Assembly (NCBI RefSeq): GCF_000953015.1
Contig: NZ_LN794158.1
Span: 1,240,001-1,304,000, forward strand
Source of the DNA: Candidatus Methylopumilus turicensis
GTDB lineage: Bacteria > Pseudomonadota > Gammaproteobacteria > Burkholderiales > Methylophilaceae
Direction: 5' to 3'
Length of the DNA stretch: 64,000 nt
The notes beneath the pieces were generated by a model. That model did not search any database, was not told where the DNA came from, and saw nothing but the letters and a program-made list of their open reading frames with translations. This document shows, in pieces, positions 1,187-13,535 of this stretch (within the stretch, counting starts at the first letter, position 1; the number at the start of each line of letters is the position of its first letter). Position numbers and translations under genes: made by a program.

Positions 1187-1212
1187 AAAGCCGATATTGC
1201 TCAAATATCGCT
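1187..1212 (-). terminator. Weak terminator after the EpsA-type regulator gene
   Basis: Just past the TAG stop at 1211-1213 the minus strand can form a 7-bp stem (CGATATT/AATATCG, loop of five), followed by CTTTT and a later T-run. The stem is AT-rich, so termination would be modest. Confidence 0.4.
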
Positions 1213-2038
1213 ATTTAAGCAAGTTCATTTTATGCGCCAAGGTTGCAGCCTGTGCTCTATTCTCAACCCCTAGTTTAGAAATCGCATTATGCACATGGTT
1301 TTTAACCGTATTGATACTCACATAAAGGATTTCTCCAATTTCCGGGTTGGTTTTTCCTTTAAAAACCCAACGCAACACCTCAATTTCACGTGGTGATATT
1401 AGTTGCTTTTCGGTTTGAAACGTTTTTTCTATCAATTCTGATCGTTGTTCAATCTCGACAGGTTTATTCGCAGACTTACGTCTATCGTTCATCACCCTCA
1501 AAAATGCATGATGCATTTGCGGTACCAGCAATTGTAAAATATAAGCATGTCTAGGATTGGGCTCGCCGGCTATTCGAGAGAAACTAAAAAAGGTGATCAC
1601 ATCGCCTTCTTTATTGGAGAGGCCATGGGCAGCGATATTCCTAAGTTCCAATTGTTTTAGTACTTCTTCGCTCTCCACAAACGGCACCCGATAAGGGCCA
1701 TGGTCGACCTCATCAAGGGTGTGGGAAACTAGTATTGGTCGAAGATCTTTTTTCCAAGCATCAATGACACGATTAACGATACCATCCTCGTAACCCGTGA
1801 CAAGCCTTACATGCTGGTCATTCACATAACGGGTGCTCACAAAACTTTCAAAATGGAGCTGGGATTGACTTTTTAGACTGACGCCGCAAATCAATACTTC
1901 ATGAGGAATCAAGGATTGTAATGAACCTTGCAACCATGAGAAAAACTGCTCGCGCTTATACACTCGAAGCGACTCTTCAAAAACATCCAATAGCAGTACG
2001 GATTCTTCTTCAGTTAAAGCTGGTTGAACATTAGCCAT
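1211..2038 (-). CDS. epsA: LuxR-type transcriptional regulator, EpsA-like (exopolysaccharide/PEP-CTERM-associated)
   Basis: A 275-residue DNA-binding regulator. Residues 214-275 are a LuxR/FixJ-type helix-turn-helix ('SPREIEVLRWVFKGKTNPEIG' region, then 'SINTVKNHVHNAISKLG'). The N-terminal ~200 residues match what I recognise as the EpsA family, which lies beside exopolysaccharide/exosortase-B loci in Methylobacillus and relatives. It has no receiver Asp pattern and no obvious acyl-homoserine-lactone pocket residues. It probably controls exopolysaccharide synthesis genes, but only the sugar-nucleotide genes at 13.5-16.2 kb could be targets in this window. The ATG has no strong ribosome binding site. 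A 10-bp G-rich tandem repeat lies 113-162 bp upstream of the start. The family call is good; target genes are unknown. Confidence 0.8.
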   Translation of the reverse strand: MANVQPALTEEESVLLLDVFEESLRVYKREQFFSWLQGSLQSLIPHEVLICGVSLKSQSQLHFESFVSTRYVNDQHVRLVTGYEDGIVNRVIDAWKKDLRPILVSHTLDEVDHGPYRVPFVESEEVLKQLELRNIAAHGLSNKEGDVITFFSFSRIAGEPNPRHAYILQLLVPQMHHAFLRVMNDRRKSANKPVEIEQRSELIEKTFQTEKQLISPREIEVLRWVFKGKTNPEIGEILYVSINTVKNHVHNAISKLGVENRAQAATLAHKMNLLK

Positions 2039-2284: not shown

Positions 2285-2701
2285 TTAGGACATTCTCAAT
2301 TTGCGACTGCAATCAAAAGCCTGCTTGGCACGAGCAACTAAATTGGGTGCAAGCACCCCAAGTTTTGGCTGATTGACGTATAACTGCCGAGGCGCTGTAA
2401 CAAACCAAGTCGTGCAGTAAGCCAAATTGACTTGATGATTGCAGTCAAGTTTAGTAGCGGCGGCTAAGCTAGATATATTAAAACTTGCCCCATCTGTTTT
2501 TTGAATCTTAAATTCTGATGGATACAATCGATTGAGCTTTTTGGTTGCTCCATACACAACAGTGACAACGGTCTTATTGTTCCCATCAACACCAACTTCA
2601 ATAACCAATGCGGGCCTTGGCTTGGGACCTCGTGCTCCTAATAAGTCGGGAAATAAACACCAAACAATGTCATCATTTGTTGGGACTGAACAATATCGCA
2701 T
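2285..2701 (-). CDS. PemK/MazF-like protein, unpaired toxin candidate
   Basis: About 138 residues when started at the ATG at 2701; a TTG at 2752 would add 17 residues. The N-terminal pattern 'DDIVWCLFPD...GPKPRPALVIEV' is the typical first strand and loop of PemK-like/MazF-like type II toxins (small SH3-like barrel RNases), and 'VTVVYGATKK' follows at the usual place. No antitoxin-like reading frame (AbrB, RHH or HTH) lies on either side: 2702-2839 holds no open frame of useful size, and downstream is the repeat region. It could be an orphan toxin, a domesticated remnant, or a PemK-fold protein without toxin activity. The Cys-rich C-terminal half is less typical. Family call is moderate. Confidence 0.6.
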   Translation of the reverse strand: MRYCSVPTNDDIVWCLFPDLLGARGPKPRPALVIEVGVDGNNKTVVTVVYGATKKLNRLYPSEFKIQKTDGASFNISSLAAATKLDCNHQVNLAYCTTWFVTAPRQLYVNQPKLGVLAPNLVARAKQAFDCSRKLRMS

Positions 2702-2839
2702 TGGTATTAAGCACAGCAAATATGTGCTAAAGCAGATTATTCGTCCGTACAACGGCGTGGTTTACGCGCTGATTGAAAAAACATATCTCTCGTAGCCATG
2801 TCATCCGCCTGTCATTTTAATCAGCTATGTTAACTTCTT

Positions 2840-3526
2840 ATGAAAATTACATATCAGCAAGCTATAAAATCAATTAAAGAATCGATTAGTGCCTTTTTGA
2901 TGATGGCGACGCTCATGCCATTTTTAGCGCCACCAATCGCACAGGCTGATATTTATATTCAGCAAGATACAAGTGAGCAGATTGTGCTGACCAATATACT
3001 CAGTGATTCAGAACAGACAAATCAGCGTGTTCGCTATGAGCTGCTGATTGAAAATGAAATACGCTCGCTAAGCAACACTGAACATAACATCGCGAGGAAT
3101 CCTCACAGTAATGAGGGTAATGATAGTTGGTCACGACAACAAATTAGCGATGCGGTAGCTAGCGCATCTGCTCAAACCGCTATTGATCCTGCTTTAATTC
3201 ATGCAGTCATCCGAGTAGAGTCAAATTACAACGCCAGGGCTGTATCACGGCGTGGCGCAAAAGGCTTGATGCAATTAATGCCCAGCACGGCAAGGCGCTT
3301 TAATGTGACCAATCCTTACGACCCCGCACAAAATGTGTTGGCTGGGGCACAATACTTGCGCGAGTTGCATACCTTATTTAACGGCAACCTGACGCTAATG
3401 TTAGCCGCTTACAATGCGGGCCCTAAGTCAGTGAGTAAGCACCACATGAAGATTCCACCATTTATGGAAACACGTTTGTATGTGCCTAAAGTATTGAGTG
3501 TGTATAGACAATTGCGTGCTGGTTAG
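2840..3526 (+). CDS. Lytic transglycosylase, SLT (family 1) domain
   Basis: A 228-residue periplasmic peptidoglycan-cleaving enzyme. Residues about 15-36 form a hydrophobic export segment ending 'PPIAQA'. Residues 112-225 are an SLT domain: catalytic Glu127 in 'RVESNY', 'GAKGLMQLMPSTA' at 139-151 and 'AYNAGP' at 190-195. Residues 37-110 are an unassigned polar linker. Such enzymes open the murein for trans-envelope machines, and the gene ends 17 bp from the last gene of the secretion/pilus block at 3.5-13.4 kb, convergent with it. A role in assembling that machine is inferred only. The ribosome binding site before the ATG is weak. Confidence 0.88.
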   Translation: MKITYQQAIKSIKESISAFLMMATLMPFLAPPIAQADIYIQQDTSEQIVLTNILSDSEQTNQRVRYELLIENEIRSLSNTEHNIARNPHSNEGNDSWSRQQISDAVASASAQTAIDPALIHAVIRVESNYNARAVSRRGAKGLMQLMPSTARRFNVTNPYDPAQNVLAGAQYLRELHTLFNGNLTLMLAAYNAGPKSVSKHHMKIPPFMETRLYVPKVLSVYRQLRAG

Positions 3527-3543
3527 ATCAACTTATTTGTACA

Positions 3544-4287
3544 TCACTGTGCATTATTTAAGTAATAGCTATCAGGGGGGACAACCCCATGTTTCTTATA
3601 ATAATCTAGCTTATCAAGACGACTAGATGAACTGTTTCCATCTGGGCTTACTTCTGCCGCTGGATTATTCGAATTGTTCTGCCTATCCAAGGCTTCTTGT
3701 TTAGCTCCGTTTTTTGAGTTATTTGCAAGATTAGATTCTGAACTGGTGATGGGACTAGGCGCGACTGGATTCGATAAACTTGATGAATCAACCGAAGTTT
3801 TTTGCTCAACACTTCCATTGCGCCCAAATATCCAATCCTTGTAGGTTTTTGCACCAACTAGTGAATCCTCTGCCACATTAAAGCCTTTCTGCTTATATGG
3901 TGCTAGCGTTGAGCGGCTATAAATCCCCACGATACGTCCCTGCTGAGTCACAAAGCCCCAGTCTGCTTTGCCTGTCATGGGGTCTAGATATATTTTACGC
4001 AAATGCCGTTTGATATTAGGCATGCGTTTGTCAAGCAACAAGTCATTGAGGCTTGCAGGATAAACCTTGGCGACGGTTGGCGAGCTTGCATAGTAGCTAT
4101 TGATGGCGTTTCTAAATTCTGCACCCACAAATAGCAATTGCTTTTCTTTTTCAGCGCGCACTTGATATTGCCAGCTCATGCCTGCCACTGATAAGCCTAA
4201 GCCAGTGATGGCGATAAATAAAAGCAGGCCAATATAAGTGAAGCCATGCTGAAAATTGCTACTGAGTTGAGCTCGCATGATGTTCAT
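3544..4287 (-). CDS. Pilin-like minor (pseudo)pilin lacking Glu5
   Basis: A 247-residue protein, last gene of the secretion/pilus operon. The ATG at 4287 shares a base with the TGA of the previous gene (TGATG), suggesting coupled translation. Near residue 15 it has a prepilin cleavage-like sequence, 'HGFTYIGLLLF', with cleavage expected after Gly and a hydrophobic helix behind it. Position 5 of the mature protein is Gly, not the Glu conserved in most pilins; loss of Glu5 is known for the tip pseudopilin GspK. A pilin-like globular part follows ('YPASLNDLLLDKR', 'YLDPMTGK.DWGFV'), and the last ~100 residues are Ser/Asn-rich and low in complexity. A tip position in the pseudopilus is inferred. 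Confidence 0.75.
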   Translation of the reverse strand: MNIMRAQLSSNFQHGFTYIGLLLFIAITGLGLSVAGMSWQYQVRAEKEKQLLFVGAEFRNAINSYYASSPTVAKVYPASLNDLLLDKRMPNIKRHLRKIYLDPMTGKADWGFVTQQGRIVGIYSRSTLAPYKQKGFNVAEDSLVGAKTYKDWIFGRNGSVEQKTSVDSSSLSNPVAPSPITSSESNLANNSKNGAKQEALDRQNNSNNPAAEVSPDGNSSSSRLDKLDYYKKHGVVPPDSYYLNNAQ

Positions 4288-4733
4288 CACCAATCGGCAT
4301 AAGCTGTACCATCTTTAGCGTTACCTGTTGCGCCACTTTTAATATCAACAACAGAACCTGTCGTATCCAAACTTGGAGATTGCGTCACCCAGGTTTCAGT
4401 GCTTTCTGTGATGGGATCTATCGGTACCGCACGGATATACTTTTTAGTGACTAGCTCTTTAATTGATGCCGGATAACGGTCGTTATCCCCATAAAATTTA
4501 TCGATCGCCACCCGCATGACGCTGAGCGACTGCTTCAATGTTGCCTCTTTCGCTTGTTCTACACTATGAAAATAGCGTGGCACGGCAATTGCAATCAATA
4601 AGGCGATGACGGTCATCACCACCATCAATTCAATTAGCGTAAATCCACGGCTTGTTTTTTTGGATGAGTAAGATACCCGCTGAGATTGAGACAAACCCTT
4701 GCATTTGATCAGTAACTTATTAATTGCTTTCAT
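4287..4733 (-). CDS. Type II secretion-like pseudopilin (GspG-like)
   Basis: About 148 residues from the ATG at 4733, which lies 4 bp after the stop of the preceding gene; a longer frame to 4832 would overlap that gene and is rejected. A canonical class III signal 'RGFTLIELMVVMTVIA' with Glu5 lies about 30 residues in, so the leader is long and basic. The C-terminal part has the GspG-like elements 'YGDNDRYPASIKELVTKKYI' and 'PIDPITESTETW'. It is expected to be cut by a prepilin peptidase, which is not encoded in this window, and to form part of a periplasmic pseudopilus. It is the second of three pilin-like genes downstream of the secretin. Confidence 0.85.
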   Translation of the reverse strand: MKAINKLLIKCKGLSQSQRVSYSSKKTSRGFTLIELMVVMTVIALLIAIAVPRYFHSVEQAKEATLKQSLSVMRVAIDKFYGDNDRYPASIKELVTKKYIRAVPIDPITESTETWVTQSPSLDTTGSVVDIKSGATGNAKDGTAYADW

Positions 4734-4737
4734 AGGC

Positions 4738-5208
4738 TCACCAAGTGTTATAGATCGTGCCATCAATGGCTTTTTTGGGACTACGGGAATACACATCGTA
4801 GACATCCGCCCCTTCTGCTGGTGCGTTAACATCGCTGGCGTAGCTTCGCTTGGCCCATGTTTCTGCTGGTTTTAAGTCGGCGTCATTATTCATGGGGTCT
4901 CTTGGTATTTTGCGAATAAACTTGATTACCTTACCTTTGGTATCTTTTTGGTTGATTACGCCTTGCTCCAACACTTCTAAACTTGGCGGATAGCCTGTTT
5001 GATCTAGTGTTCTTTTAACCATTCCTTCATCAGCCGCTTTTTTATATAAATCTATTGACTCTCTGATCTGCCTTAGTGCCTGCTTAAGTTCCGTTTCTTT
5101 GTTACGCTGTATAGTTAACTGCGCGATTGGCACGGCGCCCGCTGCCAGAATAGCCACAATCATCACCGTGACCACAAGCTCAATTAATGTAAACCCAGCT
5201 GTTTTCAT
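4738..5208 (-). CDS. Type II secretion-like pseudopilin (GspG-like)
   Basis: 156 residues with an unusually short leader: 'MKTAGFTLIELVVTVMIVA', cleavage expected after Gly5, Glu5 of the mature protein present. The globular part has 'TGYPPSLEVLEQGV' and 'IPRDPMN', a layout shared with GspG-like major pseudopilins. The ATG directly follows the secretin stop (TAA then ATG on the minus strand). It sits between the secretin and two more pilin-like genes, so it is probably a filament or tip subunit of the same machine. Confidence 0.85.
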   Translation of the reverse strand: MKTAGFTLIELVVTVMIVAILAAGAVPIAQLTIQRNKETELKQALRQIRESIDLYKKAADEGMVKRTLDQTGYPPSLEVLEQGVINQKDTKGKVIKFIRKIPRDPMNNDADLKPAETWAKRSYASDVNAPAEGADVYDVYSRSPKKAIDGTIYNTW

Positions 5209-7239
5209 TTATTGCGCAGGCGTTGCTTGATCAATAGGTGTTGGAGCCTTTGGATCAGAGGGAACAACCGCCTTCAGATCTTGAGTCACTGGAGGAGAAG
5301 TTGGAGGGGTGGGGATTGGTAATGGGTCTAGGACAGCCTCTTGTGATACAACTGACTCTGCAGTCGCTGGTTCGGCCACTTGCAATTCACGCACCAATTT
5401 TAAGCCACTGCTCATTGGCACACTAATCTGTGGTCTATCATTAATCTGCACATCCGTACCTGACCAATACTCGGAAATTTCAGCATTAGGACGACTAATA
5501 TTGCCGAGAATGCGCGGGGTAATTGCGAGCACAATTTCGGTCTTAGACTTTTTATTTGCTTGGTTAGCAAACAAACGACCCAAGAACGGAAGATCGCCCA
5601 GCCCTGGCAGCTTGCTGGCATTTTTACGTTCATCATCTAAAATTAAGCCAGCTAGTACCTGTGTTTCACCATCTTTTAAACGAAGTTGAGTGCTGGCGGA
5701 GCGCGTTCCTATGGTGTACACCGTCGCGCCATTTTTAGTGGTAGTAGCCCCTCCTAAAGAACTAACCTCTAGCTCTATCTTAATATTCACAAAATCATCC
5801 AAGGTAATGCGTGGCTGAACATCAAGCTTCATGCCTACATCTAAATAAGCAACGCTCTCAGAGATCCCTACATTTGCTGTGGAAGTGGTGGTGATGACTG
5901 GCACTTTGTCGCCCACCAAGACTTTAGCTTTTTCATTGTTCCGCACCCGGATTCTTGGATTGGAGATTAAATTTACATCATCTGTAGTTTTTCTAAAGTT
6001 AAATGCAGGGTTTGGGGAAACACTGAGCGACCTACTGGTTAACTTATTGAGACTATCAACCGTAAGCTGTTGCGATGTTTGAGTCGTTGTTTTTGCAACG
6101 GTTGCTGCAGACGTCCCTGATAAAATTGCAGTATCCAGTGATACAAGATTGTTAATAGAAATCTGATTGGGGTAAGCTATACCCAACTCTTGGAACCTGC
6201 TTCGACTTATTTCTAGCACTTCAATTTCTAGCATCACTTCTGGGTCAGCTAAATCATTAGCTGCTACTAATTTCTCAGCTATACGGATCACCTCAGGGGT
6301 GTCACGCATCACGATCATATTTAGCCTATCGTCCACCACCACATCTTTAGACTTCAAGACCGTTTTGAGGGTGCTTGCAACTTGCTTAGCTGAAGCATTA
6401 GTGAGATAGAAACTTCTAATCATGAGCTCCTTATAGTCTTTATTTTTTTGGGCAGTATTCGGAAAAATCAAGGCACTGGTTTCGGTGAGGGCTTTTTTAT
6501 CCAGTCCATTAGTCGCCAGCACCATTTCGATGGCTTCTTCTATTGGGGCATTTTTAATAAACGCTGTGGCTTTGGTTTCACTTTTAATATCTTTATCCAA
6601 AATAAAGTTAATCCCTGTTGCGCGTGATAAAGCCTCGAACATCATCTTAACGGTCACATCTCTAAACTCCAGCGTCACTGGCTTTTGGAATGGCGGCTTA
6701 AGTTTGGGTGGCTCGATGCGGGCCAATGGCTTTTGGCTGCGAATTTCAGTTTGCAAAGCGAGTGCTTCACTATTTTCTGGGGTTTCCATGAGCACCCCGC
6801 GCAAAATTGCTAGCGCTGCATCGCTATTTTTATTGGTATTTAGTTTGCTTGCTTCTTCAATGCGCACTCGTTGCTTTTGCTTACGCTCAATACCAGCTTT
6901 GCCAGAAATAGCGCGCACATTATTAGGCGCTAAAGTAATCACACGTTCATATAGGGCACTGGCTTCATCCAATCGACTACTGTTGCGAGCTTTTTCTGCT
7001 TCGGTGAGTAGCTCAGTAATTGCTTGATCTTGCGTAACTAATAAATCTTTACGCGGAATGGCGGCTTCGGGTTTTTCAGTGACTTGCTTTTGAGCGCTAG
7101 CGCTGCGCTCTTCGGGAGTTTTACCTTTAACAGCTGATTTTTCCCAGGGTGCAAACGCACAACTACTTAATAACGAGGTAATTAGGCACAGCGATATTGC
7201 ACGCTGAAAGGATGGACTGAATTGAAAGCTAAACATCAT
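5209..7239 (-). CDS. Secretin (GspD/PilQ/MshL family) lipoprotein with N-terminal TPRs
   Basis: Forms the outer-membrane ring of a secretion/pilus machine. I start it at 7239 because AAGGAA lies about 7 bp upstream; an ATG at 7263 is possible. From 7239 the protein is 676 residues, with a lipoprotein signal ending 'LLSSC' (Cys27). TPR-like helices follow at about 75-165 ('ASALYERVITLAPNNVRAISG'). A secretin N0/STN domain begins near 187 ('VTLEFRDVTVKMMFEALS'). An N1-like domain has 'DDRLNMIVMRDTP', and the secretin channel domain lies at about 320-580 ('VPVITTT', 'VAYLDVGMKLDVQP', 'DGETQVLAGLI', 'PGLGDLPFLGRLF'). The tail is Pro/Thr-rich. The TPR insertion is not part of classical GspD, which argues for a non-classical branch. 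Confidence 0.9.
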   Translation of the reverse strand: MMFSFQFSPSFQRAISLCLITSLLSSCAFAPWEKSAVKGKTPEERSASAQKQVTEKPEAAIPRKDLLVTQDQAITELLTEAEKARNSSRLDEASALYERVITLAPNNVRAISGKAGIERKQKQRVRIEEASKLNTNKNSDAALAILRGVLMETPENSEALALQTEIRSQKPLARIEPPKLKPPFQKPVTLEFRDVTVKMMFEALSRATGINFILDKDIKSETKATAFIKNAPIEEAIEMVLATNGLDKKALTETSALIFPNTAQKNKDYKELMIRSFYLTNASAKQVASTLKTVLKSKDVVVDDRLNMIVMRDTPEVIRIAEKLVAANDLADPEVMLEIEVLEISRSRFQELGIAYPNQISINNLVSLDTAILSGTSAATVAKTTTQTSQQLTVDSLNKLTSRSLSVSPNPAFNFRKTTDDVNLISNPRIRVRNNEKAKVLVGDKVPVITTTSTANVGISESVAYLDVGMKLDVQPRITLDDFVNIKIELEVSSLGGATTTKNGATVYTIGTRSASTQLRLKDGETQVLAGLILDDERKNASKLPGLGDLPFLGRLFANQANKKSKTEIVLAITPRILGNISRPNAEISEYWSGTDVQINDRPQISVPMSSGLKLVRELQVAEPATAESVVSQEAVLDPLPIPTPPTSPPVTQDLKAVVPSDPKAPTPIDQATPAQ

Positions 7240-7320
7240 GCAAATTTCCTTGTATGGTTGCATCTTTACTGAACTGCTGTGTACTAAAAAACTGGTTACT
7301 GCATTGATTTAGAAAAGACA

Positions 7321-7959
7321 TTAAATTGCCCCATCCGGATTATTTTGTTCTGCTGTTTTTTCCCCTGCGGGAGCACGCAAGGCTTTTGACAGTGTTTTGG
7401 TCAGCCCTAAAGGTAAATAAGTGAAGGTGAGCGTATTCGCCTCTTCTTTATCTAAGCGCCAAAGCGTATCCACATTTTTACCCACAGTGACTGACAACAC
7501 TTTGTTATTAGCGGTTAAAAACACTTGCGTCGCTTGTGGCGCTTGCTCTAATTTGCCCATGTAGAAAAATGGCACTGGCGGCGCTGCGGGAGGTGGTGGT
7601 GGCTCTACTTTTACCGGCACAGGCTTGGGTGGTGGCGGTGGCACATACCAAGCGTGACCCTTAAATAAATCCTGCGTTTTTTTACTTTTATCTTCCACAA
7701 ACAGATGCTTTTGCGTGAGATCTGGCAATACCGATACAGCTTCTTCAGCCACTTTGATGGCAGATTGAGACGATGTATTATTTGCAAAAGAAGCGGATTC
7801 TGGTCGCTGTTCTTGCGATGTTTTTGTTGTTTGGCTGTCTTTTGTTGAGCTTTCTTGTGGCAAACTTTCTTCAACAGGTTCTTGAACCAGATAAATAGCG
7901 AGCAAGGTTAAGGCAAGCAAACCACCAAGCATCATCCATCTTTGCTTTGGGCTCAACAT
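7321..7959 (-). CDS. Proline-rich inner-membrane protein, PilP/GspC-like
   Basis: 212 residues with an N-terminal membrane helix (about 10-26, 'MLGGLLALTLLAIYLV'). A long polar linker follows, then polyproline runs ('VPPPPPKPVPV', 'PPPPPAAPPVPFFYMGKL') and a small C-terminal beta domain. The last part ('FYMGKLEQ...FLTANNKVLSVTVGKNVD') is like the homology region shared by PilP and GspC, which links inner-membrane components to the secretin. It overlaps the PilO-like gene by 7 bp and precedes the secretin gene, as PilP precedes PilQ in type IV pilus operons. The consecutive prolines imply dependence on elongation factor P. The call is by position and architecture as much as by sequence. Confidence 0.7.
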   Translation of the reverse strand: MLSPKQRWMMLGGLLALTLLAIYLVQEPVEESLPQESSTKDSQTTKTSQEQRPESASFANNTSSQSAIKVAEEAVSVLPDLTQKHLFVEDKSKKTQDLFKGHAWYVPPPPPKPVPVKVEPPPPPAAPPVPFFYMGKLEQAPQATQVFLTANNKVLSVTVGKNVDTLWRLDKEEANTLTFTYLPLGLTKTLSKALRAPAGEKTAEQNNPDGAI

Positions 7960-8573
7960 GGTTCACGCCTTAACAGTAATGCGTAACTGAGTTTTATTTG
8001 CACGGCAGTATCTTTGACTGTTTCACGTTTGATATTCACTTCAGCTAGACCCAGGGAAGGAAATTGCTCGCTGGCACCAGCAATAAATGCTTTGAGGTTT
8101 TTATAACTACCCTGCACCGGAAAAATAATCTCATAGCGCATGAGGCGCGGATTATTGGCATCGGGTGCTAGCTTATATTCGCCCACCACTAGGCTAATGC
8201 CTTTTTCTTGCGCTAACTGATGAATTCCGGCTAAGACTTTGGACACCTCGCCGACTGGCGGAAATTGCGCATAAAACTTTTGCAGGGCTTGTTCATCATT
8301 GAGTTTAGGCAATTTAGCTTGCTGCTCGCCAGATGCAATAGGTTGCTGACTTATCCAAGCCAGCGCTTGGGTTTTTTGTTGTAAAGCCTGCTCACCTGGC
8401 AACAATGAAGTCAGTCCCATCGCTAGAGAAACGACCAAACCTAACAGGCCAAGCATACCGAGCAGCCCAAGCTGATGGCGTAAAACTTCCAAATAACTTA
8501 GCAGGCTACTGATGTTAACCTTATTGATATCAACAGCATTCATCTTGAATTTGCTCACATTAGGCTTGCTCAT
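7953..8573 (-). CDS. PilO/GspM-like inner-membrane protein
   Basis: 206 residues from the ATG at 8573, which overlaps the TGA of the upstream gene in an ATGA junction. One transmembrane helix at about 33-55 ('LLGMLGLLGLVVSLAMGLTSLL') is followed by a coiled-coil stretch and a ferredoxin-like periplasmic domain ('LRYEIIFPVQGSYKNLKAFIAGASEQFP' region), the hallmark of PilO. It probably pairs with the PilN-like product of the preceding gene to form the inner-membrane alignment complex. Gene order M-N-O-P-secretin is that of type IV pilus operons, although the rest of the block is type II-like. Confidence 0.75.
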   Translation of the reverse strand: MSKPNVSKFKMNAVDINKVNISSLLSYLEVLRHQLGLLGMLGLLGLVVSLAMGLTSLLPGEQALQQKTQALAWISQQPIASGEQQAKLPKLNDEQALQKFYAQFPPVGEVSKVLAGIHQLAQEKGISLVVGEYKLAPDANNPRLMRYEIIFPVQGSYKNLKAFIAGASEQFPSLGLAEVNIKRETVKDTAVQIKLSYALLLRREPC

Positions 8574-9103
8574 TGGTGATCTTTCCAAGTTGCCACTGCG
8601 ACAAAGCGGATGGGATGCTGATCGACATCTTCGACGACTTCATGCTTGAGCAGGTAAACGTTGGCAAGCTCGCCACTGGCCTCGAGCTTTTCTAGGTAGC
8701 TAAACATGATGTCTTTATTCTTCGCCTCGGCTGTGATTTTGAGTTGGCGCTTCTTCGCATCTGGCTCTATCGCTAGCAGCGCAAGGCCATCTAAGGCTGA
8801 AGATTCAAGTGCATTCAAGACATCGCCCCATGGAATCATCAAGAAACTCGCGAGTTTTTTGGCCTCTTCAATTTTAGCGAGAAGATCAGCCGATGATTTT
8901 GCTTGTAGCTGCGGCTCGGCTGGTTTGAGACCTTTACGTTCTTTTAATTGCAAGATGGATTGATCTAACGTTAACAGTTGTTGATTGATATGAGTATGTC
9001 GCTGCCAAACAGTCATGAGCACAATCAGCCCGAGTGTGAACATTGCAAGTCCTAGCAAGGATGGCTTGCGACTTGAGGCAAAATCGAGATGGAGGGCGCG
9101 CAT
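8570..9103 (-). CDS. PilN-like / GspL C-terminal-like inner-membrane protein
   Basis: 177 residues: a short cytoplasmic N-terminus ('MRALHLDFASSRK', comparable to the PilN motif that binds PilM), one transmembrane helix at about 17-35, a coiled coil, and a small ferredoxin-like periplasmic domain ('LNALESSALDGLALLAIEPDAKKRQLKITAEAKN' region). It starts 3 bp from the stop of the PilM-like gene and overlaps the PilO-like gene. It probably bridges the cytoplasmic PilM-like protein to the periplasmic complex. Confidence 0.72.
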   Translation of the reverse strand: MRALHLDFASSRKPSLLGLAMFTLGLIVLMTVWQRHTHINQQLLTLDQSILQLKERKGLKPAEPQLQAKSSADLLAKIEEAKKLASFLMIPWGDVLNALESSALDGLALLAIEPDAKKRQLKITAEAKNKDIMFSYLEKLEASGELANVYLLKHEVVEDVDQHPIRFVAVATWKDHQ

Positions 9104-9105
9104 GA

Positions 9106-10026
9106 TTAAAACACCGCACTTAATGCCATGGTGTATGGCTGATCTTTGCTAGGCATATAGCCAGTAATGGCTTTTTGATTAGCGGGTAGCACTTGCCAAG
9201 CGGGATTGTTTTGCTTAAAGCCTTGCTTGATTTTTTCATCCTGAAGTGTGGGCAGCGCGGAAAAATAGATACTTGCCTGCGTATTCTGCAAGCCAGCTAT
9301 TTGAAGGCCAGACAAGAGCAACTCGCGTGAAATAAGCGCGGCTAAATCATCCGACCAATCCTCAGAGGTTTTGGTCGCCGTGATACTTTGCCAATTGCCG
9401 TCGCGCATTAAAGCAATCGTTAAGCGGCCTGCTTCCACCTGAACCAAACAGCTCACACCAGTGCCTATCTGACGACGCATACTATTAAATCCACTCATCA
9501 AATAGGGCTGCAATGAATTAAGCTTAGACTGATGCTTTTGACAGAGCGCTTCGATTGCCGTGACCAATTCGGTATCTATAGCGCTGATCAAAAGGCTATC
9601 ACCATGCGGAAGCGGATTCGCGCGTATCGTCCAATGATCCACACTGTCGCCATAGCTTTCTCTAAAACAATGCGTGGCGACGGCCATCACTTTGTCAGCA
9701 GGGCTGAAAGCTGGCATAGCCGGAATGATTTTGTAACGGACGAATTGATTGGATAACACCAGCGTTAATGGCAGACCATTCCCTGAAGGCTTGCTTTGTG
9801 TCTGAGCGTTTGCATTTGATAGTAAGTTTTCTAAGGCAATGATCGCGCTTGCCCAAGACTGTGCCTGATGGGCAACCTGATGATTGGCAGCCATCGGCGC
9901 AAGATTTTTTTCGAGTAATCGTTTAGCCATGCCATTTTCTAGGCGCAGCAGTGCCACAGCATCCGCGCCTAGACTGGCGACTTGCTGGGTCAATAACTGA
10001 TTTTTAAAGCGCAATAAAAGTGACAC
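9106..10026 (-). CDS. PilM/GspL-N-like cytoplasmic actin-fold protein
   Basis: 306 residues, GTG start at 10026 with AGAAGAGA upstream, overlapping the end of the ATPase gene by 23 bp. No transmembrane segment. Weak actin-like ATPase-fold signs, such as 'LTLVLSNQFVRYKIIPAM' and 'VSCLVQVEAGRLTIALMRDGNW', resemble MshI/PilM-like proteins. Its position between the E-type ATPase and a PilN-like gene supports a PilM/GspL cytoplasmic-domain role. Sequence similarity to classical PilM is low, so the call rests on context. Confidence 0.62.
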   Translation of the reverse strand: MSLLLRFKNQLLTQQVASLGADAVALLRLENGMAKRLLEKNLAPMAANHQVAHQAQSWASAIIALENLLSNANAQTQSKPSGNGLPLTLVLSNQFVRYKIIPAMPAFSPADKVMAVATHCFRESYGDSVDHWTIRANPLPHGDSLLISAIDTELVTAIEALCQKHQSKLNSLQPYLMSGFNSMRRQIGTGVSCLVQVEAGRLTIALMRDGNWQSITATKTSEDWSDDLAALISRELLLSGLQIAGLQNTQASIYFSALPTLQDEKIKQGFKQNNPAWQVLPANQKAITGYMPSKDQPYTMALSAVF

Positions 10027-11716
10027 GGTTAATCTCTTCTAAAGTTGTCTTACCGTTGGCAACTGCTTCAACTGCAGTTTCACGGAGAAGTCGCAAGCCT
10101 TTGCGGCGAGCGGTTTCTTTGAGTTGTCTAATGGGATCACGAGCTATGATCATTTCGCGAATTTCGTCATCTAAAATGAGTAACTCAGCGACGGCCATAC
10201 GCCCTTTATACCCGGTACCGCGGCATTGACCGCAACCTTGGCCTTTTAAGAAAGTCATGCCGGCAGCAGCTTCTTGAGTCACTGCAGATTTTGCCAATAG
10301 CTCATCCGATGGCTGGTAGCTCACCGCACAATTGGTGCAATTTAAGCGCACCAGTCGCTGTGCCAAAATGCCATTGAGTGCAGAGACAAAACTATAGGTA
10401 TCGACTTCCATGTTAATAAAACGGCCAATCACATCAAACACATTATTAGCGTGGACCGTAGTAAAAACTAAGTGACCGGTAAGCGCTGCTTGCACGGCAA
10501 TTTGCGCGGTTTCTGAGTCGCGAATTTCGCCCACCATAATTTTGTCAGGGTCGTGACGCAAGATAGAACGCAGTCCACGCGCAAAGGTGAGGCCTTTTTT
10601 CTCATTCACGGGAATTTGTAGCACGCCAGATAAGTTGTATTCAACCGGATCTTCAATGGTGATAATCTTGTCTTTGCCCGTATTGACCTCTGAGATAGCC
10701 GCATACAAAGTAGTGGTTTTACCGCTACCGGTGGGGCCTGTGACTAGCACCATGCCGTAAGGCTCTTGCGCTAGCGCACGAAATTGATTGCGAGTGAGTT
10801 CGTCAATCCCAATGTGTTCAAGGGTCAGGCCCTTAGATTGCTCGGTCAAGGCCTTGCGATCCAAAATACGCAAGACGGCATCTTCGCCATACACGCTAGG
10901 CATGATAGACACACGCAAATCGACTTCGCGATTTTGGATATTGACTTTAAAGCGCCCATCTTGCGGGACTCTACGTTCCGCAATATCGAGTTCCGCCATC
11001 ACTTTAATCCGCGAAATCACTTGCTCTGCCATCTCGGCACCTTGAATCGCACCGACGGTATCTAGCACGCCGTCGATTCGATATTTAAGCGCTAAGCCTA
11101 AACCTGTCGTTTCTAGGTGAATATCACTCGCGCCAATTTTCATGGCATCGTACAAGGTGGAATTCACTAAGCGAATGACTGGACTGGCATCTGCTGAAAT
11201 ACTACTTAAGGATAGTTGCTCCACTCCTTCAATTTGATGCAGGGCTGACTGGCCTGATTCCTCTTCGTTTGCCATGACTTTGTCCATGGCTTTAAGCGTT
11301 TCTTCAAAACGCGATAAGTAAGCAGACACGTCGGCATAATGCGATAAGCGCAAGGCAAATGGCTCGCGTACCTTTTCCATGAGCCAATTAGCAAGGCCTT
11401 CCGCAAATGGGTCGGCGATGGCAACCAATAAATCGCCTTGCTGATTTCTAAGCGGAATACATTCATGCTGATAGGCTTCAGCAAACGCTAACACATCAAA
11501 ATCCGTGCTAAGTTCATGTAAGGCTTTGTTATCAAGGGTCACGTACTGAAACGCCGCCCCTAGTGCCGCAAGAAATGCCTCTTGCGAGAGCTCGCTTTGG
11601 TCTGCCAATACCTCAATCAAAAGGCGACGAGATTGCTGGGCAATTTGTTTTGCCTGTTGAATTGCCTCCGCACTAATAAGCTTAGGCGCTGCTTGGTGGA
11701 TGATAGGCTGGTTCAT
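10004..11716 (-). CDS. Type II secretion/type IV pilus assembly ATPase (GspE/PilB family)
   Basis: A 570-residue hexameric motor ATPase for pseudopilin polymerisation. An N-terminal GspE/PilB domain (about 1-140) is followed by the catalytic core: Walker A 'GPTGSGKTT' at 327-335, Asp box 'ITIEDPVE' at 352-359, Walker B around 'IMVGEIRD' at 393-400 and His box 'TGHLVFTTVH' at 413-422. A zinc tetracysteine motif is complete at C460, C463, C495 and C498. This pattern marks an assembly ATPase rather than a PilT retraction ATPase, and no retraction ATPase is in the block. Its ATG overlaps the stop of the platform gene's neighbour in an ATGA junction at 11713-11716. Confidence 0.95.
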   Translation of the reverse strand: MNQPIIHQAAPKLISAEAIQQAKQIAQQSRRLLIEVLADQSELSQEAFLAALGAAFQYVTLDNKALHELSTDFDVLAFAEAYQHECIPLRNQQGDLLVAIADPFAEGLANWLMEKVREPFALRLSHYADVSAYLSRFEETLKAMDKVMANEEESGQSALHQIEGVEQLSLSSISADASPVIRLVNSTLYDAMKIGASDIHLETTGLGLALKYRIDGVLDTVGAIQGAEMAEQVISRIKVMAELDIAERRVPQDGRFKVNIQNREVDLRVSIMPSVYGEDAVLRILDRKALTEQSKGLTLEHIGIDELTRNQFRALAQEPYGMVLVTGPTGSGKTTTLYAAISEVNTGKDKIITIEDPVEYNLSGVLQIPVNEKKGLTFARGLRSILRHDPDKIMVGEIRDSETAQIAVQAALTGHLVFTTVHANNVFDVIGRFINMEVDTYSFVSALNGILAQRLVRLNCTNCAVSYQPSDELLAKSAVTQEAAAGMTFLKGQGCGQCRGTGYKGRMAVAELLILDDEIREMIIARDPIRQLKETARRKGLRLLRETAVEAVANGKTTLEEINRVTFIAL

Positions 11717-12900
11717 TGGATGCTTCCCGCCAAATCAAAAATGGGCATATACAGCATGAGCACCACAAACCCAATCACAAAGCCGATGAACAGCATGAGT
11801 AAGGGTTCAAATAGTTTGGTAAACCAATCAATCCAGCGCGCGGTTTCTTCATCATAAAAACTAGAAATACGCTCCATCATTTCGCCCATCATGCCGCTCC
11901 GTTCCCCCACCCTCAGCATTCGCAGTGCAACAGGCGTTGAAAGATCATTGAGCTCCATGGCCATGGAGATGGCTTGGCCTTGACGAATTTGTTCGGAAGC
12001 CGCCAGCATGCGCACTCTTAAGGCGGGGGCGAGCAGACCTGAAACCATCTTGAGCGCATTAAGAATCGGAATACCGGCAATCAGCAGCATGCCCAAAGAA
12101 CGATAGAAGCGTGAGAGTTGATAGATTTTCATACGCTCACCAATGGCTGGAATTTTCCATACCATCTCCATTAACTTGGTACGCACAGATTTTAGACTTA
12201 ATAAATAGGCGGCTAAAGCCATTAATCCAAGCAATGACATCATCAAGCTAAATCCATGTTGCTCAATAAACGTTCCCAATGAAAGTAATACTTGTGATAA
12301 AAATGGCAGGTCACTACCCATGTCTTCGTATATATGGGCAAACTTAGGCACGACATACGCCACTAAAAACAGCACCACCAAGCTGCCAACCGACAGCAAC
12401 ATCGCTGGGTAAATAGACGCTGAGATGACTTTCTTTTTCACTTGATCGATTTGACTTTGATAAGCGATATACCGCTTGAGTGAATCAGCCATTCCGCCTG
12501 TTTTTTCACTCGCTCTCAAGGCTGCCACATACAATGGCGGAAACGCTTGTGGAAAAGACTGCATGGCGGTGGACAATGGCTGACCTTCACTTAATAGCCT
12601 CAGTATGCCTTGAAGTGTTTGTCTGACCTCTGGACGCGTTTCTTTTTCTGCAAGCGCTTCAATGGCTTCCATCAAGTTAAGTCCGGCTTCCAACAAGGCC
12701 AGCATTTCTTGACTAAACAGCATGATCGGAAAGCGCTCACGCTTGGTGAAGTGTTTTTGCCATCCACTGCCCGCTGGTTTAGCTGAAAATACGGTGTAGC
12801 CTAAAGACTTAGCACTGCCAATAGCCATCTGCTCGCTGACGGCATCTAGTCGTAGCGATGAATATTCTTTGCCGCGTAATACACTGAGGTCATAAAGCAT
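11713..12900 (-). CDS. Inner-membrane platform protein (GspF/PilC family)
   Basis: 395 residues with two GspF repeats, each ending in membrane helices: 'YPAMLLSVGSLVVLFLVAYVV' near 165, 'LMMSLLGLMALAAYLL' near 220 and a C-terminal helix 'LLMLFIGFVIGFVVLMLY' near 370. The repeat signatures 'QEMLALLEAGLNLMEAIEALA' and 'FYRSLGMLLIAGIPILNALK' are clear. It couples the ATPase to pseudopilin extraction from the membrane. The start lies 2 bp after the pseudopilin G stop. Residues 1-60 carry a short cytoplasmic N-terminal extension typical of GspF. Confidence 0.95.
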   Translation of the reverse strand: MLYDLSVLRGKEYSSLRLDAVSEQMAIGSAKSLGYTVFSAKPAGSGWQKHFTKRERFPIMLFSQEMLALLEAGLNLMEAIEALAEKETRPEVRQTLQGILRLLSEGQPLSTAMQSFPQAFPPLYVAALRASEKTGGMADSLKRYIAYQSQIDQVKKKVISASIYPAMLLSVGSLVVLFLVAYVVPKFAHIYEDMGSDLPFLSQVLLSLGTFIEQHGFSLMMSLLGLMALAAYLLSLKSVRTKLMEMVWKIPAIGERMKIYQLSRFYRSLGMLLIAGIPILNALKMVSGLLAPALRVRMLAASEQIRQGQAISMAMELNDLSTPVALRMLRVGERSGMMGEMMERISSFYDEETARWIDWFTKLFEPLLMLFIGFVIGFVVLMLYMPIFDLAGSIQ

Positions 12901-12902
12901 AA

Positions 12903-13355
12903 CTACCAGCTGACAATGTCCGCCATCTCATCTACCCCGCCTGGTTGACCGTCTTTACCTAAAGAAGATAAATCGTATTCGCCGTGTTCGCCAGGGGATT
13001 TGTATTGGTAAGGGTTGCCCCAAGGATCTGCAGGCACGCTTTTCTTAAGATAAGGACCTGACCAACGTGCCTCACTTGCTGGTTTCACCATCAGCGCTGC
13101 CAAGCCTTGCTCGGTGGCGGGATAGTGGCCGGTATCTAAACGATATTGGTCTAATGATTTTTCTAAAGCATCGATTTGCGCGCGCGCCGCTTTGACTTCT
13201 GATTTGCCGATTTGGGCGAAATATTTAGGGCCGACATAACCAACGAGCAGGCCAATAATGACCATCACCACCAATAGCTCCAACAAAGTAAAGCCACGTT
13301 GGCTTAAATTTGATCGTTTATTGCTTAATGGTCTTTTACTCAATGGGTTGGTCAT
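12903..13355 (-). CDS. gspG: Major pseudopilin GspG
   Basis: About 150 residues from the ATG at 13355, chosen because GAAGGG lies about 8 bp upstream; an ATG at 13373 has no site. The prepilin signal 'RGFTLLELLVVMVIIGLLVG' includes Glu5. The globular domain is classical GspG: 'LDTGHYPATEQGLAALM', 'PYLKKSVPADPWGNPYQY' and a C-terminal 'YDLSSLGKDGQPGG', where Asp and backbone groups bind calcium in known GspG structures. It is the first gene of the 11-gene block and the main filament subunit. Calcium-site residues and the PxDPWG motif place it with type II secretion rather than with type IV pilins. Confidence 0.95.
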   Translation of the reverse strand: MTNPLSKRPLSNKRSNLSQRGFTLLELLVVMVIIGLLVGYVGPKYFAQIGKSEVKAARAQIDALEKSLDQYRLDTGHYPATEQGLAALMVKPASEARWSGPYLKKSVPADPWGNPYQYKSPGEHGEYDLSSLGKDGQPGGVDEMADIVSW

Positions 13356-13497: not shown

Positions 13498-13535
13498 CGC
13501 AAAAACTAGATTGCGCGATAAAGATATCGCGCCAA
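13498..13535 (-). terminator. Terminator after the NDP-sugar pyrophosphorylase gene
   Basis: Directly past the TAA at 13536-13538, the minus strand forms a perfect 8-bp stem GCGCGATA/TATCGCGC with a 4-nt loop (13513-13532), followed by a short spacer and TTTTT (13501-13505). The 11-mer CTAGATTGCGC also occurs twice here, at about 13490 and 13506. Confidence 0.6.

Follow-up and report, generated by a model that had tools for sequence, protein, structure and literature searches.

An eleven-gene locus of hybrid type II secretion and type IV pilus composition in Candidatus Methylopumilus turicensis and its probable function in protein export

An atypical type II secretion system (T2SS) of Geobacter, known as Pul or OxpG, has reportedly been described since 2006. 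Here it is set beside an eleven-gene block, referred to as the hybrid, which combines parts of the T2SS and of the type IV pilus and which lies in a 64,000-nucleotide stretch (the window, positions 1240001-1304000, GC near 46%) of the single-contig genome (1.755 Mb) of the freshwater bacterium Candidatus Methylopumilus turicensis, whose nearest named relatives are Methylophilaceae. The Geobacter system is needed for the secretion of OmpB, with PulG, OxpG and TklG as pseudopilins (PMC3543383, PMC10599522). It was compared with the hybrid through the literature only: in Geobacter and Pelobacter the T2SS carries the gene names pulG/P/Q/F, two or three pseudopilins are reported for it and four belong to the hybrid, and its cargo is OmpB, whereas PEP-CTERM and 480-residue proteins are the putative cargo of the hybrid version described below as version A. 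The T2SS-E protein NE1609 of Nitrosomonas matches GSU1783 (3e-132) and Pcar_0131 (1e-128), with the next genomes at 1e-91 (PMC1569441, Table 2); NE1609 may be a hybrid ATPase, and the kinship with Geobacter is taken as a lead only. Secretons of unknown function with a very similar described neighbourhood, reported in 2009, were likened by description only and were not treated there as a family. From this literature the Geobacter Pul/OxpG system looks like kin, and the machine does not appear categorically new.

The eleven open reading frames (ORFs) run on the minus strand from 13355 to 3544 in the order G-F-E-M-N-O-P-D-p1-p2-p3, with the starts of gspG, p2 and p3 corrected to 13355, 4733 and 4287, respectively. 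The F/E and N/O junctions are coupled by ATGA and p2/p3 by TGATG, E/M and O/P overlap by 23 and 7 bp, respectively, and D abuts p1. The preliminary description of this DNA had reported a continuous block on one strand with coupled starts, a calcium-type GspG, a GspE-type ATPase with four Cys, a lipoprotein secretin with tetratricopeptide repeats (TPR) followed by three pilin-like genes, and a convergent lytic transglycosylase at the end of the block. Each of these was recovered by the domain, motif and alignment data given below and in Table 1. Because the gene-order search showed the order to be kept across the family and across the order Burkholderiales, the block is not a product of chance. 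Its hybrid type II/type IV composition is supported.

For the phylogenetic placement of E and D, the references of GspE, PilB, PilQ and MshL were taken by curated cut-off and those of GspD and MshE by adjacency. The hybrid ATPases formed a single clade outside GspE, PilB and MshE (SH-aLRT 100), which was also obtained on a smaller careful tree (ultrafast bootstrap/SH-aLRT 100/100), and the hybrid secretins formed a single clade outside GspD, PilQ and MshL (SH-aLRT 100). MshE as the deeper sister of the ATPase clade had a weak support of 75/51, a sister relation to GspE was not rejected (p-AU 0.38), and the secretin clade was nearest to GspD with a weak support of 83. The tree of F gave a weaker separation (76) with long branches. 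Neither E nor D was therefore placed inside the canonical clades of the T2SS, the type IV pilus or the mannose-sensitive haemagglutinin (MSH) pilus, and a firm place of both within the canonical T2SS or type IV pilus, together with a complete second set elsewhere, which would have spoken against a separate branch, was not obtained. The earlier suggestion of a separate branch can accordingly be sharpened: the ATPase and the secretin have clades of their own, the locus is common in Burkholderiales and occurs in two paralogous versions in Methylophilaceae, and likely kin have reportedly been on record since 2006.

The profile scores were likewise below the curated cut-offs of the canonical families. 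E scored 506 bits against 630 for GspE (TIGR02533) and 500 against 676 for PilB (TIGR02538), F was under the cut-offs of GspF (274 against 424 bits) and PilC, and D was under those of GspD (178 against 351), PilQ (171 against 284) and MshL (113 against 250). The Walker A motif, the Asp/Glu box, the Walker B motif, the His box and both CxxC pairs of E were kept in 35 aligned members, with few positions varying. D is composed of a lipobox, TPR, an N0-like domain, STN, Secretin_N and Secretin, and its lipobox Cys35 was invariant in 13 aligned members (group A1). A C-terminal cohesin domain, unusual for a secretin, follows the secretin domain in some relatives (L275:13824-16208, L280:14890-17259).

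The assignment of the middle genes as PilM/N/O/P-like held, mainly by fold or profile and seldom by Pfam match. Fold prediction was applied because Pfam and NCBIfam gave nothing for M and nothing useful for P; the search of PDB profiles with M was also empty. The AlphaFold model of M (pLDDT 88, pTM 0.87) matched PilM of P. aeruginosa best by Foldseek (E 8e-16), followed by FtsA and then by cytoplasmic domains of GspL. The phosphate-1 hairpin of M is poorly conserved, and therefore ATP binding by M appears doubtful from its sequence. N matched the MshI2/PilN-type set (hhalign probability 95, E 5e-8) and O the MshJ/PilO-type set (probability 73, E 3e-5), and the PilM-N-O platform of the type IVa pilus (T4aP) is thus represented by fold for M and by profiles for N and O. 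For P, a helix at 4-25, a disordered Pro-rich linker and a six-strand domain at 132-191 (pLDDT >90) were predicted, and the top eight Foldseek matches were all domains of PilP, GspC or GspB, with a target TM score of up to 0.78 (GspC). GspC was also preferred by hhalign at a weak probability of 42, and P matched no GspC family. P begins with a transmembrane helix and has no lipobox, and so is not a PilP-type lipoprotein.

GspG reached its curated model, Glu5 was found in 96 of 96 aligned sequences, and its C-terminal calcium-type loop (DPWG...DGxxGG...DI) was conserved. Position +5 of p3, read like the other Glu5 frequencies from alignment columns, was Gly in 76 of 111 sequences and Glu in none of the 111. 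Since the tip pseudopilin GspK characteristically lacks Glu5, a tip made of p1, p2 and p3 is proposed. The comparison with GspK is made through Glu5 alone, because none of the three matched the GspK set by hhalign; neither p1 nor p3 reached the cut-offs of GspH, I, J or K, and p2 was covered by the Pfam scan only. The reported absence of GspC and GspK needs the qualification that P has a GspC/PilP domain and a GspC-like transmembrane anchor and that p3 is Glu5-less like GspK.

With the canonical T2SS (Gsp/Xcp), in one model of which GspC is mandatory (PMC6668835), the hybrid shares GspG, a GspF/E-type motor, a secretin, a GspC-like linker domain and a minor pilin without Glu5. It differs from it by missing the GspE, GspF and GspD cut-offs, by an ATPase and a secretin outside the canonical clades, by PilN/PilO-type proteins and a soluble PilM-like protein instead of GspL and GspM, and by a lipidated secretin with TPR. 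From T4aP it is separated by the PilB and PilQ equivalog models, neither of which was reached. A run like I-J-K-L of the MSH pilus (actin-like protein, PilN, PilO, linker and secretin) adjoining E and F is shared with that pilus, but the hybrid operon has no MshM, its TPR is fused to the secretin and not provided by a separate MshN, its main subunit is GspG, and the MshL cut-off was not reached.

Two versions of the hybrid with the identical order were distinguished among the secretin matches of Methylophilaceae, i.e. version A (~46-86% identity) and version B (~40-45%), which are often co-resident in one genome. The present locus is version A, and its secretin is 86% identical to that of a congener. 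The order was repeated in the named relatives wherever the contig was of adequate length, although their loci are not all independent, several genomes being in both collections. Among these relatives are Gallionella, Sulfuricella, Thiobacillus, Massilia, Collimonas, Undibacterium, Nitrosospira, Rhodoferax, Noviherbaspirillum and Vogesella. With the secretin profile (E <1e-120), 78 of 200 sampled Burkholderiales genomes and 45 of 109 genera were positive; the phylum sample gave three of 200 genomes at 1e-80, every one from Burkholderiales. Plasmid searches with p1 and the secretin returned only Betaproteobacteria and Aliiroseovarius, and on plasmids and chromids the operon is retained with minor changes. 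In Janthinobacterium gspG is relocated to the end, in Paraburkholderia gspG and the transglycosylase are convergent, and in Burkholderia ambifaria the transglycosylase is immediately 5' of gspG. The Aliiroseovarius plasmid copy is divergent and is preceded by an A24 peptidase of its own; in A. crassostreae (L277) it lies near LanC-like and HopA1-like genes.

Two secretins were found in the genome, namely D and one of 462 residues whose gene is close to that of a TadA-type ATPase, together with three clear T2SSE-family ATPases (E, that of the Tad system and a PilT-like protein encoded beside yggS/proC) and a single prepilin peptidase (A24, PilD type, adjoining coaE). The PilB and PilQ models gave no match in the genome at the limits used, nor was a GspD or a second PilB-class ATPase found. 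To judge from these searches, the cell thus has no GspE/PilB-class secretin system other than this machine, Tad apart. The conserved operon has no retraction ATPase. The PilT-like gene elsewhere (L080:5211-6257, ~429 kb) is intact despite the lack of any PilB or PilQ seen, and its product could serve this machine. A lone pilin-like gene of 220 codons (L307:4389-5051) lies just 3' of cytochrome c biogenesis genes and distant from pilus operons. Planktonic strains of Methylophilaceae have lost mobility (PMC6794327).

The flanking genes were clustered across the loci. The transglycosylase was present at 42 loci (mostly convergent after p3), the EpsA-type regulator at 26, a PEP-CTERM-type protein at 21, a secreted protein of 480-500 residues at 20, an FhaC-type TpsB at 17 and an FHA-type TpsA at 16. 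In this genome the region just beyond the window (~1223.6-1237.8 kb) holds a PEP-CTERM gene (PF07589 over cut-off), followed after 29 bp by a gene for 478 residues, as well as TpsB and FHA, and an exosortase match (PF09721) is at contig position 1200009, so that an EpsA regulator, a PEP-CTERM neighbour and an exosortase are all present. By a crude regular expression, PEP-CTERM-like ORFs numbered 4.96 per 100 kb around version A, 0.31 around version B and 1.30 in the wider set, and there were none among the control loci (12 Gsp, 12 Msh). Exosortase (PF09721 over cut-off) was found in 18 of 20 version A genomes versus 7 of 40 others (Fisher p 7e-8) and, among genomes of ~2 Mb or larger, in 16 of 18 versus 7 of 19 (p 0.002), the compared genomes sharing ancestry. 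Within variable genera, exosortase and version A were concordant in g1, g11 and g12, mostly so in g7 and discordant in g10, g22 being uninformative. This neighbourhood of version A (EpsA, PEP-CTERM, 480-residue protein, FhaC/FHA) and its co-occurrence with exosortase are new here. Version B loci carry a different secreted family (cl8) 5' of gspG, and other copies adjoin an M4 metallopeptidase or lie near RHS and IPT/TIG proteins. No sigma-54 sites or long shared motifs were found upstream of gspG or of the EpsA, transglycosylase, PEP-CTERM and TpsB genes.

Table 1. Features of the hybrid locus and its surroundings, in positions of the window
Feature	Position	Strand	Evidence
gspG, major pseudopilin (G)	12903..13355	-	TIGR01710 179.5 bits (cut-off 88.85), Glu5, calcium-type loop
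F, inner-membrane platform protein	11713..12900	-	PF00482, two stretches
E, extension ATPase, CxxC...CxxC	10004..11716	-	PF00437 424 bits; own clade
M, actin-like cytoplasmic platform protein, GTG start	9106..10026	-	PilM-like fold
N, PilN-like	8570..9103	-	PF05137 E 8e-4, slightly below cut-off; hhalign
O, PilO-like	7953..8573	-	PF04350 slightly above cut-off; hhalign
P, transmembrane helix, Pro-rich linker and GspC-HR/PilP beta-domain	7321..7959	-	AlphaFold, Foldseek, hhalign
D, lipoprotein secretin, N-terminal TPR, self-piloting candidate	5209..7263	-	PF00263, PF03958, STN, weak TPR matches, lipobox
p1, minor pseudopilin	4738..5208	-	PF07963; Glu5 119/119
p2, minor pseudopilin	4287..4733	-	PF07963; Glu5 120/120
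p3, minor pseudopilin without Glu5, GspK-like tip candidate	3544..4287	-	+5 column of alignment
Terminator-like hairpin 5' of gspG	13513..13532	-	8-bp stem, then T-rich tail; consensus match only
Lytic transglycosylase, conserved convergent partner	2840..3526	+	PF01464 SLT E 1e-28
EpsA, XrtB/PEP-CTERM-associated LuxR-type regulator	1211..2038	-	TIGR03020 233.9 bits (cut-off 170)

The hairpin of Table 1 stands between gspG and the sugar-nucleotide genes upstream. Just 5' of EpsA, TTATGGGGTG forms a perfect 10-bp tandem repeat of 5.5 copies (2150-2204), a possible expression switch, and the ORF at 2285-2752 (minus strand) between EpsA and the transglycosylase is PemK/MazF-like by eye. ATAGTCCGAAAGCACTA occurs twice within ~300 bp upstream of the PEP-CTERM gene (L305, 15792, minus strand) as a candidate regulator site and is absent from the window. 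The giant FHA-type TpsA is split into overlapping ORFs of 1299 and 2061 residues in different frames (L305:1620-7805 and 7759-11658; ~1223.6-1233.7 kb), and this adhesin gene thus seems to carry a frameshift, either in the genome itself or in its assembly.

The locus probably encodes a secretion piston that resembles type II systems but forms an evolutionary branch by itself. Its lipoprotein secretin would be self-piloting, and matrix or adhesion proteins are its probable cargo in version A. A PilD-type peptidase encoded elsewhere would mature GspG and the minor pilins, and E, via F and an M-N-O platform of PilMNO/MSH type, would power the building of a short pseudopilus of GspG that has p1, p2 and the Glu5-less p3 at its tip. 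P, as a GspC-like transmembrane linker, would join the platform to D, whose lipid anchor and TPR module may stand in for a separate pilotin or a TadD/MshN-type assembly factor. The neighbouring transglycosylase would open the peptidoglycan, and folded periplasmic cargo would be pushed out via D. For version A the likely cargo is the PEP-CTERM protein encoded next to it along with the 480-residue partner of that protein, both of which would be made, alongside the products of the EpsA/exosortase and two-partner adhesin genes, to form a surface matrix. The substrate, which the preliminary description had left unnamed, is narrowed by gene neighbourhood to the neighbouring secreted proteins as candidates. 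Since version A loci adjoin the EpsA, PEP-CTERM, 480-residue and FhaC-FHA genes and co-occur with exosortase, an exosortase-sorted surface protein is the likely cargo; a version A serving as the dedicated outer-membrane exporter of exosortase-sorted PEP-CTERM surface proteins is put forward tentatively.

Several points weigh against this piston and its cargo. Overproduced GspG can assemble into long fibres, and a surface filament is therefore conceivable, which the orphan PilT kept in the genome could retract. The exosortase co-occurrence is partly due to shared ancestry, one genome (G029) has version A and no exosortase, and the FHA protein has its own exporter, TpsB. The cargo link cannot be universal, because version B has no PEP-CTERM neighbourhood and the likely kin in Pseudomonas and Ralstonia come from genomes scored PEP-CTERM-negative (PMC1569441, Table 2).

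These differing surroundings, with cl8, HbpS-like, M4 peptidase and RHS neighbours at version B and other Burkholderiales loci, would also suit a general exporter of many enzymes, for which the PEP-CTERM and FHA genes are coincidental passengers of the island. This is judged rather unlikely, as the EpsA/PEP-CTERM/480-residue/TpsB set is also found at Nitrosospira and other non-Methylophilaceae loci and, in the variable genera g1, g7, g11 and g12, the presence of exosortase mostly tracks that of version A. An adhesive, MSH-like surface pilus, whose adjoining adhesins merely share a regulon, is less probable still: the operon has a GspG main subunit by curated cut-off, a p3 without Glu5 as in GspK, and neither a tip adhesin of the PilY1 or MshQ kind nor a retraction motor, and the apparent relative in Geobacter was reported as a secretion system (PMC3543383). 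These outweigh the resemblance of M, N and O to PilM/MSH parts, the M-N-O-P-secretin order common to T4aP and MSH clusters, the retained PilT and the adhesion island around the block. A decaying T4aP or T2SS remnant, as might be supposed from the small genome in which no T4aP extension motor or PilQ was seen, is hardly credible given eleven intact ORFs with full catalytic motifs, the close match to the congener's secretin and the same set in large genomes.

Genes of the hybrid are thus present in about two fifths of the sampled Burkholderiales genomes, annotated only as scattered 'GspE/PulE family' or 'hypothetical' entries. Within the reference set used, their ATPase and secretin form a fourth well-supported branch beside T2SS, T4aP and MSH. 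In D, the lipid anchor and the TPR assembly module seem to be built in, which touches on how secretins are piloted. C-terminally sorted surface proteins of the GlyGly-CTERM/rhombosortase and MYXO-CTERM/myxosortase types cross the outer membrane by T2SS (PMC11980579, PMC3237569); the sorting enzyme differs here, and the link to PEP-CTERM/exosortase is only genomic. If the tentative assignment of version A is true, the PEP-CTERM pathway would gain the final step that is missing from it, and a C-terminal sorting enzyme would be paired with a machine of T2SS type for the third time.

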